From Caballeronia sp. SL2Y3 (GTDB taxonomy: Bacteria > Pseudomonadota > Gammaproteobacteria > Burkholderiales > Burkholderiaceae), in assembly GCF_022879575.1 (NCBI RefSeq), contig NZ_CP084260.1, forward strand, positions 186,001 to 250,000: 64,000 nucleotides of DNA, in the 5' to 3' direction. Within the stretch, counting starts at the first letter, position 1. Each line of letters begins with the position of its first letter. A model generated the notes under the pieces. That model was not told the DNA's origin. It ran no database searches and worked only from the letters and a program-made list of their open reading frames with translations. Position numbers and translations under genes: made by a program. This document shows, piece after piece, positions 27,945 through 31,014 of the stretch.

Positions 27945-29597
27945 TCAGGCTTCCACCGCCTCGTCCTCGCGCACCTTCCGCGCGATTCCCTTCGAGCGAT
28001 TCACCGCGCTCACGACCGCATCGACGACCGCGAGCGCCGGATTCGCGTGCACCGCGACGCCGAAGCGCATGGATTCGTCGGCGACGCGGCAGCCCACGAA
28101 GACGGCGGTTTCGCCGTTCGCCGTGACCGTCGATTCGAACCAGCTCACGCTCGCGCCGACGTCCAGACTCGCGGCGACCGCCTGTGCGTAATCTTCCTCG
28201 CTTGCAGCGCTCGAAGCCGACGGCACCGCAATGTTTCGCCCGAAGACGGAAACCGCCGCCGCATCCACGCGCAATACCGGCCCGCCGGCGTCGAAATACT
28301 CGCGCCTGAAGAGCGCGCAGATGGCGTCGCCGCTGATCTCCTCGCCCGATTCGTCCGCCACCGCCTGCACCGCATGACTGAACTCGATCTGCACGCGGCG
28401 CGGCGGCGTGAAGCCGAGGCCGCGTTCGAGCAGATAGGTCGCGCCGCCTTTGCCCGACTGGCTGTTCACGCGAATCACGGCGTCGTAGCTGCGGCCGAGA
28501 TCGGCGGGATCGATCGGCAAATAGGGCACTTCCCACGGCGTGCCGGGCACGCGCTGCGCGAATCCTTTGCGGATCGCGTCCTGATGTGAGCCGGAAAACG
28601 CGGTGAACACGAGGTCGCCCGCGTACGGATGGCGCGGATGCACCGGAAGCTGATTGCAGCGTTCGACCACGCGCCGCACCGCGTCGATGTCCGAGAAGTC
28701 CAGGCCGGGATCGATGCCCTGCGTGTACAGATTGAGCGCGAGCGTGACGAGATCGACGTTGCCGGTGCGCTCGCCGTTGCCGAAGAGGCAGCCTTCGACG
28801 CGATCCGCGCCCGCGAGCAGCGCAAGTTCCGCCGCCGCGACCGCCGTGCCGCGATCATTGTGCGGATGCACCGAGAGCACGATGCTGTCGCGAAAGCCCA
28901 TGTTGCGGTCCATCCATTCGACCTGATCGGCGAACACGTTGGGCGTGGCGGATTCGACCGTCGCCGGCAGATTGACGATCATCTTGTGGTCCGGCGTCGG
29001 ACGCCAGATTTGCGCCACGGCATCGCACACTTCGCGCGCGAACGACAGCTCCGTCATGCTGAAAGTCTCGGGCGAATACTGGTAGATCCAGTGCGTGCCC
29101 GGCCGCGCCGCCGCGCATTCCTTGATGATGCGCGTGCCCTCGACGGCCAGCGCCTTCACTTCGTCCTTCGACTGATTGAACACAATGCGCCGAAACGACG
29201 GCGCAATCGCGTTGTAGAGATGCACGATGACCTTGCTCGCGCCCTCGACCGCTTCGAACGTGCGCTCGATCAGTTCGCGGCGCGATTGCACGAGCACTTC
29301 GATGGTGACGTCGTCGGGAATGCGCTTTTCGTCGATCAGCTTGCGCACGAAGTCGAAATCGGTCTGCGACGCCGACGGGAATCCCACCTCGATTTCCTTG
29401 AAACCCGTTGCCACCAGCATCTCGAAGAATTCGAGCTTCGCTGCAATGCTCATCGGCTCGATCAGCGACTGATTGCCGTCGCGCAGATCGGTGCTCATCC
29501 AGATGGGCGCCTTCTCGATCGTGCGATTCGGCCAGCGGCGGCCATGCAGACGGACTTGCGGGAACGGGCGGTATTTCTCGGCGGGGTTCGGCATCAT
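27945..29597 (-). CDS. leuA: 2-isopropylmalate synthase
   Basis: This 550-residue enzyme condenses 2-ketoisovalerate with acetyl-CoA in the first committed step of leucine synthesis. The catalytic motif [11 protein letters not shown] lies near residue 35, and the metal-binding motif HPHNDRGTA near residue 243. A C-terminal LeuA regulatory domain, site of leucine feedback, follows from about 415. The length and start [15 protein letters not shown] fit the long LeuA form found in actinobacteria and fungi. A leader with CTA leucine codons lies upstream on the same strand. Confidence 0.95.
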
Positions 29598-29982
29598 GAT
29601 CGTCGATCTCTTTCAGCAGCGTAGCGCCTGCGAGAGCGGCCGACGCCGGCGGCTGGCCGGGTGCGGCGCGATGCACATGAAGCACGTGAAGCAGAACCGC
29701 GCGCACGATCCCATTGCGCACCGGCGACGGTGACGCCTGCGACCAACGTGAACGTGCGCGAAGCAGCGTGCATGTGACCCTCGCGTTTTCGATTCGCGGG
29801 ATGCGCGAACGAAAAACTGACGACTACTAGGTGGTAAGGAAGGAACTGCGGGAACGGCTGGCGGGAACGTGCGCCTGGCGACGCGCGCCGCTACGTCTGG
29901 CGACTTACGCTAGACGTAGCGATAGGGGCCGCGCTAGGCGGCCCGAAATAATTCGGAGGGAGAAGAATTGGGTGAAACGCAT
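29598..29982 (-). promoter_or_regulatory. Candidate leuA leader/attenuator RNA
   Basis: The 385-base leader of leuA holds a 25-codon ORF (29905-29982) rich in CTA. It also has stem A (GGGCCGC/GCGGCCC, 29926-29944) and stem B (GCTACGTCT/AGACGTAGC, 29890-29920), both overlapping the Leu codons. Downstream is a direct repeat GCGGGAACG (29848-29856, 29861-29869). No classical terminator with adjacent U-tract is visible. The termination step, if any, may be Rho-dependent or act on translation. Confidence 0.6.
29905..29982 (-). CDS. leuL: leuA leader peptide (four CTA Leu codons)
   Basis: The 25-residue ORF begins MRFTQFFSLRIISGRLARPL and ends SLRLA. Leucines 16, 20, 22 and 24 are all encoded by CTA, a rare codon in this GC-rich genome; Leu9 uses CTC. 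It lies upstream of leuA on the same strand, and its last Leu codons lie inside a nine-base stem-loop. This matches the logic of leu leader peptides, where scarce Leu-tRNA stalls the ribosome. A candidate -10 ends only six bases before the ATG, so the transcript may be leaderless. Confidence 0.7.
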   Translation of the reverse strand: MRFTQFFSLRIISGRLARPLSLRLA

Positions 29983-29988
29983 TGGCCT

Positions 29989-30018
29989 ACTTTAAACCAG
30001 CGTTGAAGAAGGTGTCAA
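29989..30018 (-). promoter_or_regulatory. Candidate promoter of the leuL-leuA transcript
   Basis: On the minus strand, TTGACA (30013-30018), 18 bases, and TAAAGT (29989-29994) form a sigma70-like promoter. The expected start point coincides with the A of the leader ATG at 29982. Confidence 0.6.
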
Positions 30019-30042
30019 ATGCGGATTTTCCGATTGCGGTGC

Positions 30043-31014
30043 CTATACCGGCCGGCGCACGACATCCGCGATCAGCTCCACCTGACGCGCGATGGCGGGC
30101 GGCACCGGCACGTCGCCCCGCATCACGTCTTCGATCCAGCGGGCGGTAGTGGCGGCATCGAGCGATTCGGGCAGTTCGACGGCGGGCGCGTCCGCTTGCG
30201 AACGCTCGGGCGCGACGAGCGTCTCGGCGTGGCCGTCGTGGAACCAGTCGATCTGCACCTGGCGGCGCGTGTCCGCGACCGCCTCGCCTTCGGTGCCGCG
30301 CGCGAGCAGCGCGCCGCCTTGCGCGGCGTCCGGGTGTTCGGTGAACAGCGCGGTGAGGCTGTCGCGATATTCGGGGTGCGTGTAGTTGACGAGCCGCAGG
30401 CCCGGCTCCGCGAACGGCTGCAGAATCTTGACGAGCGTGTGCGTCGAATTGCGCACGCCCATCACGCGCCGAAGGTCCAGCAGCCGCGCGAGCTTGGGCG
30501 CGAGCGCCGTCACCGGCGCGAACGCGAGGCGGCGCGAGGCGAGGCTGTCCTCGATCTCGTCGGGCGACGCGGCGTGCGGAATGCCCACTTCGGCGAAGAT
30601 CGCGGCGCTCGTCACGCGGCCCGGATCGTCCACCACGCCATGCACCAGCACCGGCACGCCTTCGCGCGCGAGCAGGAGCGCGAGCAGCGGCGTCAGGTTC
30701 GGCTGCTTGCGCGCGCCGTTGTAGCTCGGGATCGACACGGGCCGCGCGTGCTCGCGGCCTTCCTGCACATGCAGCGGCTCGAACGAACGATGCGCCGCCG
30801 CCAGCATCGCGGCGAGTTCGGCGGCGGTCTCGCCCTTCACGCGATACGCGAGCAGCACGGCGCCGAGTTCGACGTCGGAGACGCGGCCATCGAGCATGGC
30901 TTCGTAGAGCGAATAGGTGTCGTCACGCGAAAGTGCGCGCGCGCCGTTCGGGCCGCGCCCGATTTCCTTGATATAGCGCGCGCAGGGGAAAGAAGGAGGT
31001 GGAGTGTCGGTCAT
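30043..31014 (-). CDS. ybiB: YbiB-family DNA-binding protein (TrpD2)
   Basis: This 323-residue protein belongs to the TrpD2/YbiB family, related to anthranilate phosphoribosyltransferase by fold. Family members bind nucleic acid rather than PRPP. N-terminal helical motifs (LSRDDTYSLYEAMLDGRVSDVELGAVLLAYRVKGET) and the central IPSYNGARKQPNLTPLLALLLA are conserved. E. coli YbiB is induced in the SOS response. It lies alone, divergent from the FAH gene and downstream of the leu leader promoter. Confidence 0.86.
   Translation of the reverse strand: MTDTPPPSFPCARYIKEIGRGPNGARALSRDDTYSLYEAMLDGRVSDVELGAVLLAYRVKGETAAELAAMLAAAHRSFEPLHVQEGREHARPVSIPSYNGARKQPNLTPLLALLLAREGVPVLVHGVVDDPGRVTSAAIFAEVGIPHAASPDEIEDSLASRRLAFAPVTALAPKLARLLDLRRVMGVRNSTHTLVKILQPFAEPGLRLVNYTHPEYRDSLTALFTEHPDAAQGGALLARGTEGEAVADTRRQVQIDWFHDGHAETLVAPERSQADAPAVELPESLDAATTARWIEDVMRGDVPVPPAIARQVELIADVVRRPV

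Follow-up and report, generated by a model that had tools for sequence, protein, structure and literature searches.

Amino-acid attenuation is a textbook mode of control in enterobacteria, and Rho-dependent leaders, of which tna is one among several, offer a parallel in which a small ORF is followed by a C-rich untranslated stretch. In leuL of Salmonella and E. coli, a short leader ORF with rare CUA control codons precedes a leucine gene, and changes of CUA to CUG reduced the sensitivity of the Salmonella leu attenuator (passages of PMC1183508). According to passages of PMC1262725, the actinobacterial LEU element of leuA combines a Leu-codon leader ORF with RNA structure, a conserved pseudoknot included, and has no evident terminator, and tna is named there as a possible parallel. 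The trpL leader of Sinorhizobium meliloti, as described in passages of PMC7298713, contains Trp codons and an attenuator terminator; its RNA, rnTrpL, was shown to start at the trpL ATG, and the products of this leader (rnTrpL and peTrpL) act in trans. Leaderless genes have also been reported, in passages of the literature, from B. cenocepacia.

Here we describe a leader preceding leuA in Caballeronia sp. SL2Y3, found in a 64,000-nucleotide stretch of its genome (the window). Like leuL, it is a short ORF with rare CUA codons before a leucine gene, but the CUA codons form a run in leuL and are spread over nine codons here, the start is presumably leaderless, leuA alone follows, and there is no conserved terminator/antiterminator pair. 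The likeness to enterobacterial leu leaders drawn in the original prediction, which had been made from the window alone, holds for the sensor part and fails for the terminator/antiterminator part. The actinobacterial LEU element belongs to a different lineage, and its stem between Leu codons and the leuA Shine–Dalgarno sequence was not found in 24 main-family leaders. With the S. meliloti trpL leader the present one would share an ATG at the RNA 5′ end, although it is concerned with leucine rather than tryptophan and has no terminator. In the literature consulted, which consisted mostly of titles and abstract openings, we found this leader described nowhere, nor any leucine attenuator from the Burkholderia group, and main-text passages of PMC4603805, PMC5688073 and PMC10175445 do not name leuA.

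The leader ORF and leuA

On the minus strand, the leader region lies between ybiB (30043-31014), upstream, and leuA, downstream, with 385 nt from the leader ATG to the leuA ATG. The two coding features are:

29905..29982, minus strand: leader ORF of 25 codons, CTA at codons 16, 20, 22 and 24 and CTC at codon 9, presumed leaderless (ORF reading and comparison)
27945..29597, minus strand: leuA, 2-isopropylmalate synthase, 550 aa, TIGR00970 type

The translation of the leader ORF (29905-29982, minus strand) is MRFTQFFSLRIISGRLARPLSLRLA, ending at a stop codon. A 25-codon ORF upstream of leuA and on its strand had been predicted and is indeed present; the four CTA codons are where they had been placed, but the peptide contains five leucines rather than the four that had been counted. 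CTA is as rare as had been supposed, making up 25 of the 1,908 Leu codons (1.3%) in the 48 gene-like ORFs of the window, or 1.40 per 1,000 codons, and at this rate at least four CTA among five Leu codons would arise with P = 1.5e-7, a value that takes the ORF as picked beforehand and is uncorrected for selection. Searches of the leader peptide against Pfam (E ≤ 10) and NCBIfam (E ≤ 0.001) found no family. At the gathering threshold of Rfam 15 the leader belongs to no family, the whole window yielding one tRNA alone, and three sub-threshold matches lie at the leader.

The closest leuA locus among named genomes is that of Caballeronia sp. GAFFF1 (97% protein identity). The LeuA protein of the window has the catalytic and IPMS_D2 domains, its last 159 residues have no Pfam match, and its match to M. 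tuberculosis LeuA ends at residue 444. The C-terminal region is where we would presume the leucine-feedback domain to lie; because no Pfam match was found there, control by the leader may carry a larger share of leuA regulation. In two other genomes, at L170 (1908-3017, plus strand) and L176 (84-1184, minus strand), the leader precedes a leuA of only 366–369 aa that consists of the catalytic domain alone.

Conservation of the ORF and its CTA codons

In named genomes, 45 of 51 leuA loci are preceded by a correspondingly placed leader ORF that has four or more CTA codons. Of the six loci lacking it, L042 is the second leuA copy of the genome carrying L014, L043 and L044 come from distant organisms, and L047, L048 and L050 are partial or low-scoring leuA matches. 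Sixty upstream regions from further family members gave the same picture: all 40 main-type leuA loci have the leader ORF, with 3–5 CTA each, and once GTG and TTG are admitted as starts, an ORF with three or more CTA is seen in 18 of the other 20 (second copies, other genera) and in neither of the remaining two. With ATG as the sole start, 52 of these 60 upstreams contain an ORF with three or more CTA; the reverse strand gives 0 of 60, and single-base shuffling gives 10 of 1,200.

The comparisons that follow draw on 74 leaders, of which 51 are distinct; 50 of these and 40 further ones form a set of 90, with L082–L090 left out. Loci whose leuA start was unrecognised (L041, L043, L044, L047, L048 and L050) and L042, which has no leader, were excluded, and L038 was excluded from the mutual-information, RNAalifold, arm-shuffle, terminator, C-minus-G and promoter sets. 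Two alignments were hand-picked from the 90: A1, with 26 leaders chosen for diversity, and A2, with 25 leaders chosen for a short E loop, none of them from Caballeronia.

CTA is kept at codons 16, 20, 22 and 24 in 25, 26, 26 and 26 of 26 diverse leaders, so that both the ORF and its CTA codons have the conservation in relatives that the original prediction implied. Codons 16 and 20 lie outside the paired strands of stems A and B described below and are CTA nonetheless, which indicates that the codon itself is kept. Among 35 distinct 25-codon leaders of the Caballeronia type, codons 15–25 are nearly invariant, and codons 10, 11, 15–17, 20 and 22–25 are invariant in every base.

Some loci outside the main family carry CTA-rich leader ORFs of their own. 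In genus g3, which we guess is probably Cupriavidus-like, the ORF ends in LPIGCRA-like residues (L138, L139 and L140; L135 by eye), and in L138–L140 its Leu and Ser codons are complementary to the leuA Shine–Dalgarno sequence, an arrangement reminiscent of the actinobacterial LEU element. Several second leuA copies (L141, L144, L145 and L147–L150) have, by eye, a CTA-rich leader ORF of their own at a TTGAC-type promoter, together with repeated CCGGUU/AACCGG segments capable of successive pairings, including one with the leuA start; for L145, such a duplex was also obtained by computation.

A promoter that suggests a leaderless start

The promoter elements are:

30013..30018, minus strand: −35 hexamer TTGACA, exact in 81 of 81 distinct upstreams
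29989..29994, minus strand: −10 hexamer TAAAGT, separated by 18 bases from the −35 box and by six from the leader ATG (consensus scan)

With 10 of 12 matches to the consensus, TTGACA-18-TAAAGT is the sole match in 29500-30100, where 0.1 would be expected. The predicted geometry, with the −10 box ending six bases before the ATG, was confirmed, and the layout is common to all 81 distinct upstreams: each has TTGACA, a spacing of 16–18 and a gap of 6–11 bases from −10 to ATG, these distances being possibly off by one or two as the −10 register was chosen by score with at least three of six matches needed. A Shine–Dalgarno motif (GGAG, GAGG or AGGA at the usual place) precedes the leader ORF in 0 of the 81. 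Judged by this geometry, the first base of the transcript would belong to the leader AUG or lie no more than a few bases away from it, making the leader ORF leaderless.

The pattern TTGACA, 16–18, TANNNT, 5–8, ATG occurs at five places in the whole of the organism's own genome, and the reversed pattern at none. At one of the four besides the leader (L189, C2:86589-86628), a 142-aa ORF starts at most eight bases after the −10 box; it looks like a MarR-type regulator and is a candidate for another leaderless gene.

Stems A, B and C

Three hairpins lie within and directly after the leader ORF:

29926..29944, minus strand: stem A, within the ORF, with CTA16 in its loop (covariation; missed by RNAalifold)
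29889..29921, minus strand: stem B, pairing the final ORF codons with bases beyond the stop, which itself lies in the loop region (covariation)
29867..29888, minus strand: stem C, directly after stem B (four consensus pairs)

Stem A is the perfect hairpin that had been proposed, with 7 bp at 29926-29944. Stem B, which had also been called perfect (29890-29920), is present but contains one A.C mismatch on the transcribed strand (G.T on the other). Codon 20 lies in the linker between the two stems, and codons 22 and 24 are partly in stem B. The fold of 29870-29982 (113 nt) has an energy of −50.9 kcal/mol (z = −5.23).

Both stems covary in relatives. In A1, 94.3% of the 404 cells of stems A and B are paired, compared with 19–57% in slid registers; the covariation is 0.192 against 0.112, a value reached in 0 of 500 shuffles, and six pairs have changes in both partners, where shuffles give 2.6. 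The count of pair types in A1 does not exceed that of shuffles (75 of 500). The two stems contain 26 G.U cells and four A.C cells, a G.U pair being possible on the leuA sense strand alone. Applied to 85 leaders, RNAalifold recovered stems B and C, stem A being absent. In an arm test over distinct forms, stems A and B and helix E (below) scored above 500 shuffles and helix F did not, the arms of stem B having been placed by best complementarity, which favours that stem. Column mutual information was set aside as swamped by shared ancestry. It is on the leuA sense strand that both stems show covariation.

Genomic distribution of the leader

A covariance model (R1) was made from stems A and B plus the ORF. 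In the organism's own genome (5.5 Mb) it has one significant match (E = 4.2e-25), the two others having E values of 0.34 and 0.81. At E up to 0.01 it matches 107 of 249 family genomes, with 101 strong matches in five genera. Weak matches were found before leuA in two g16 genomes (a sixth genus), and those in four g3 genomes were rejected as chance, being on contigs other than that of leuA or far from it. Of the strong matches, 97 of 101 sit 284–421 nt before a listed leuA; two of the four remaining genomes were examined and have a short-form leuA there also, the other two being G200 and G114. Among 150 genomes of the order there were three matches, two in the same genus and one (G330, E = 1.7e-4) at a chance place among unrelated ORFs. 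The carriers are Caballeronia, Paraburkholderia and Trinickia, with Pararobbsia in variant form, and in addition g11 and g25.

In five genomes of the same genus as the window (G003, G005, G009, G026 and G044), leuA was matched in pieces only, several with stop codons, and the leader is still detected with lower R1 scores, as if leader and leuA were decaying together.

The region between the leader and leuA

Stem C is followed by a C-rich, G-poor stretch and then by a three-way junction, in which helix E joins the bases after hairpin D to a segment shortly before leuA and helix F closes the junction. A second ORF (ORF2) also lies here:

29796..29873, minus strand: stretch rich in C and poor in G, a possible loading site for Rho, overlapping F and D in its 3′ portion
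29819..29825, minus strand: 5′ strand of helix F, AGUCGUC (core invariant in A2; window fold; fails arm shuffle)
29786..29816, minus strand: hairpin D (folding, alignment)
29778..29784, minus strand: 5′ strand of helix E, GCGAGGG, also the Shine–Dalgarno sequence of ORF2 (covariation in A2; window register)
29630..29636, minus strand: 3′ strand of helix E, CUCUCGC (window register)
29598..29604, minus strand: putative 3′ strand of helix F, GACGAUC, between the leuA Shine–Dalgarno sequence and AUG (minimum-energy fold)
29594..29773, minus strand: ORF2, 59 codons, Shine–Dalgarno-led, ATGA overlap with the leuA start, no CTA

The best 78-nt C-minus-G value of the leader region is in the top 0.33% of the window. 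It is reached by 50 of 90 leaders against 3 of 47 control upstreams, the leaders being related and not independent, and 24 of the 90 fall below 0.18.

In A2, 88.4% of 525 junction cells are paired and the covariation is 0.179 against 0.125, reached in 0 of 500 shuffles; two further measures on the same alignment do not exceed shuffles (129 and 463 of 500). All four varying pairs of helix E show both-sided change. Helix F has an invariant core, and its outer two pairs are formed in 9 and 11 of the 25 leaders. RNAalifold on the A2 alignment recovered F, D and E unaided. In the arm test, which assigned E arms in 84 and F arms in 82 of the 90 leaders, helix F was 84.2% paired against a shuffle maximum of 85.7% and so was not supported there. 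In the minimum-energy fold of the window, the 5′ strand of helix F pairs beside the leuA AUG, covering two of its bases. Sequence comparison shows the ORF with its CUA codons, the layout of the promoter, both in-frame stems (A and B) and, in related genera, helix E. Neither the C-rich stretch nor the long-range three-way junction before leuA, with its covarying helix E, had been part of the original prediction.

ORF2 was considered as a necessary part and rejected, as it is absent in several genera. In the window and in other Caballeronia loci it has lost its CTA and runs into leuA through the ATGA overlap, and in six Paraburkholderia-type loci (L095, L096, L098, L104, L119 and L126) its end is a short Leu-rich stretch that includes CTA. 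Three further loci (L131, L132 and L134), read by eye, seem to have two tandem Leu leaders.

Search for a terminator or an RNA switch

No terminator-like site was found in 29500-30100, so that the earlier statement that no U-tract terminator is visible was right for the window. Between the leader stop and leuA, an intrinsic terminator is absent in 68 of 90 leaders. The other 22 have terminator-like matches, and the ten of these 22 that were listed sit 170–200 nt after the stop rather than at stem C and have no shared position. When 11 leaders were folded at four ribosome positions, no alternative to stems B and C recurred, which speaks against classical switching within the limits of a method that cannot exclude mutually exclusive alternative helices. 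Among 24 main-family leaders, the duplexes that the leader or the C-rich stretch could form with the leuA start varied from one to the next, and the position of the ribosome had no consistent direction of effect on the accessibility of the leuA start in nine leaders; neither was retained as a shared device.

Proposed mechanism and alternatives

We consider that the locus is probably a leaderless-ORF, ribosome-mediated leucine attenuator of leuA with an output other than an intrinsic terminator. Ribosome stalling, a response to leucine and an output of the leader are what we infer from the arrangement. The leaderless transcript would have its 25-codon leader translated from the 5′ end; when charged Leu-tRNA for CUA is low, the ribosome would slow at CUA 16, 20, 22 or 24, and the position at which it stops would decide whether the in-frame stems A and B form. 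Given the usual ribosome footprint, a ribosome held at codon 16 would still allow stem B to form, whereas from codon 20 onwards, the stop included, it would sit on the 5′ strand of that stem. Four spread CUA codons are a less direct sensor than the run in leuL, which weighs somewhat against this reading. As to the output, Rho could act on the C-rich stretch after the ribosome leaves, and Rho-dependent termination in this untranslated stretch is the likeliest candidate, tentative as it is. The small ORF followed by a C-rich stretch resembles tna-type leaders, but the stretch begins ~30 nt after the leader stop, where a stalled ribosome would not visibly mask it from Rho. Control of the leuA start is the next likeliest output, and here too we would not put it beyond a possibility.

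The same evidence bears on several other readings. Translational attenuation, in which the leader ribosome would set the D/E/F junction over the start of leuA or of the ATGA-coupled ORF2, so that translation rather than transcription is controlled, is possible but doubtful. It would make sense of the covariation of helix E at all four varying pairs, of the recovery of F, D and E by RNAalifold, of the window fold that pairs F with the leuA start region, two AUG bases included, of the failure to find a terminator, and of the complementarity between leader codons and the leuA Shine–Dalgarno sequence in L138, L139 and L140. Against it stand the inconsistent pairing between leader and leuA start in the 24 main-family leaders, an accessibility with no consistent response to ribosome position in the nine leaders folded, the failure of helix F in the arm shuffle with outer pairs in only 9 and 11 of 25, and the absence of ORF2 from several genera. 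Less likely than this, and rather speculative, is a two-stage leader of the Burkholderia group, in which a leaderless CUA leader with position-reporting hairpins would be followed by a junction holding the start of ORF2 or leuA, again with no intrinsic terminator, as a chain of checks on leucine. ORF2 would then be a second leader, headed by a Shine–Dalgarno sequence; CTA persists in it at several loci of the Paraburkholderia type, and in Pararobbsia it is a clear second Leu leader.

Classical attenuation of the enterobacterial leu type, with an intrinsic terminator, is the least probable reading: it would account for the hairpins and for a leader ORF containing rare Leu codons ahead of a leu gene, but the window and 68 of 90 leaders lack the terminator and no alternative pairing recurs. 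It is improbable that the region is a structured or small RNA that does not sense leucine and whose CTA codons merely follow from base pairing. The strength of the stems (z = −5.23) and the partial inclusion of codons 22 and 24 in stem B fit such an RNA, whereas codons 16 and 20 are still CTA outside the stems (25 and 26 of 26), all 81 upstreams have the ORF starting where the transcript is presumed to begin, and the R1 matches are tied to leuA (97 of 101). A leader RNA or peptide acting mainly in trans, for which rnTrpL and peTrpL of S. meliloti set a precedent (passages of PMC7298713), is very improbable; the near invariance of codons 15–25 in the 35 Caballeronia-type leaders would suit it, but nucleotides are fixed there and not residues alone, which codon sensing and the stems explain.

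We therefore favour the leaderless leucine attenuator. It is single-copy, linked to leuA and well conserved, and it seems to have dropped both the Shine–Dalgarno start and the intrinsic terminator and to have added a long-range RNA junction. Should the two-stage arrangement prove true, stages of leader gain and loss would be preserved across genera. The leader offers a clean system for learning how a ribosome stalled on a leaderless ORF may signal without a terminator hairpin.
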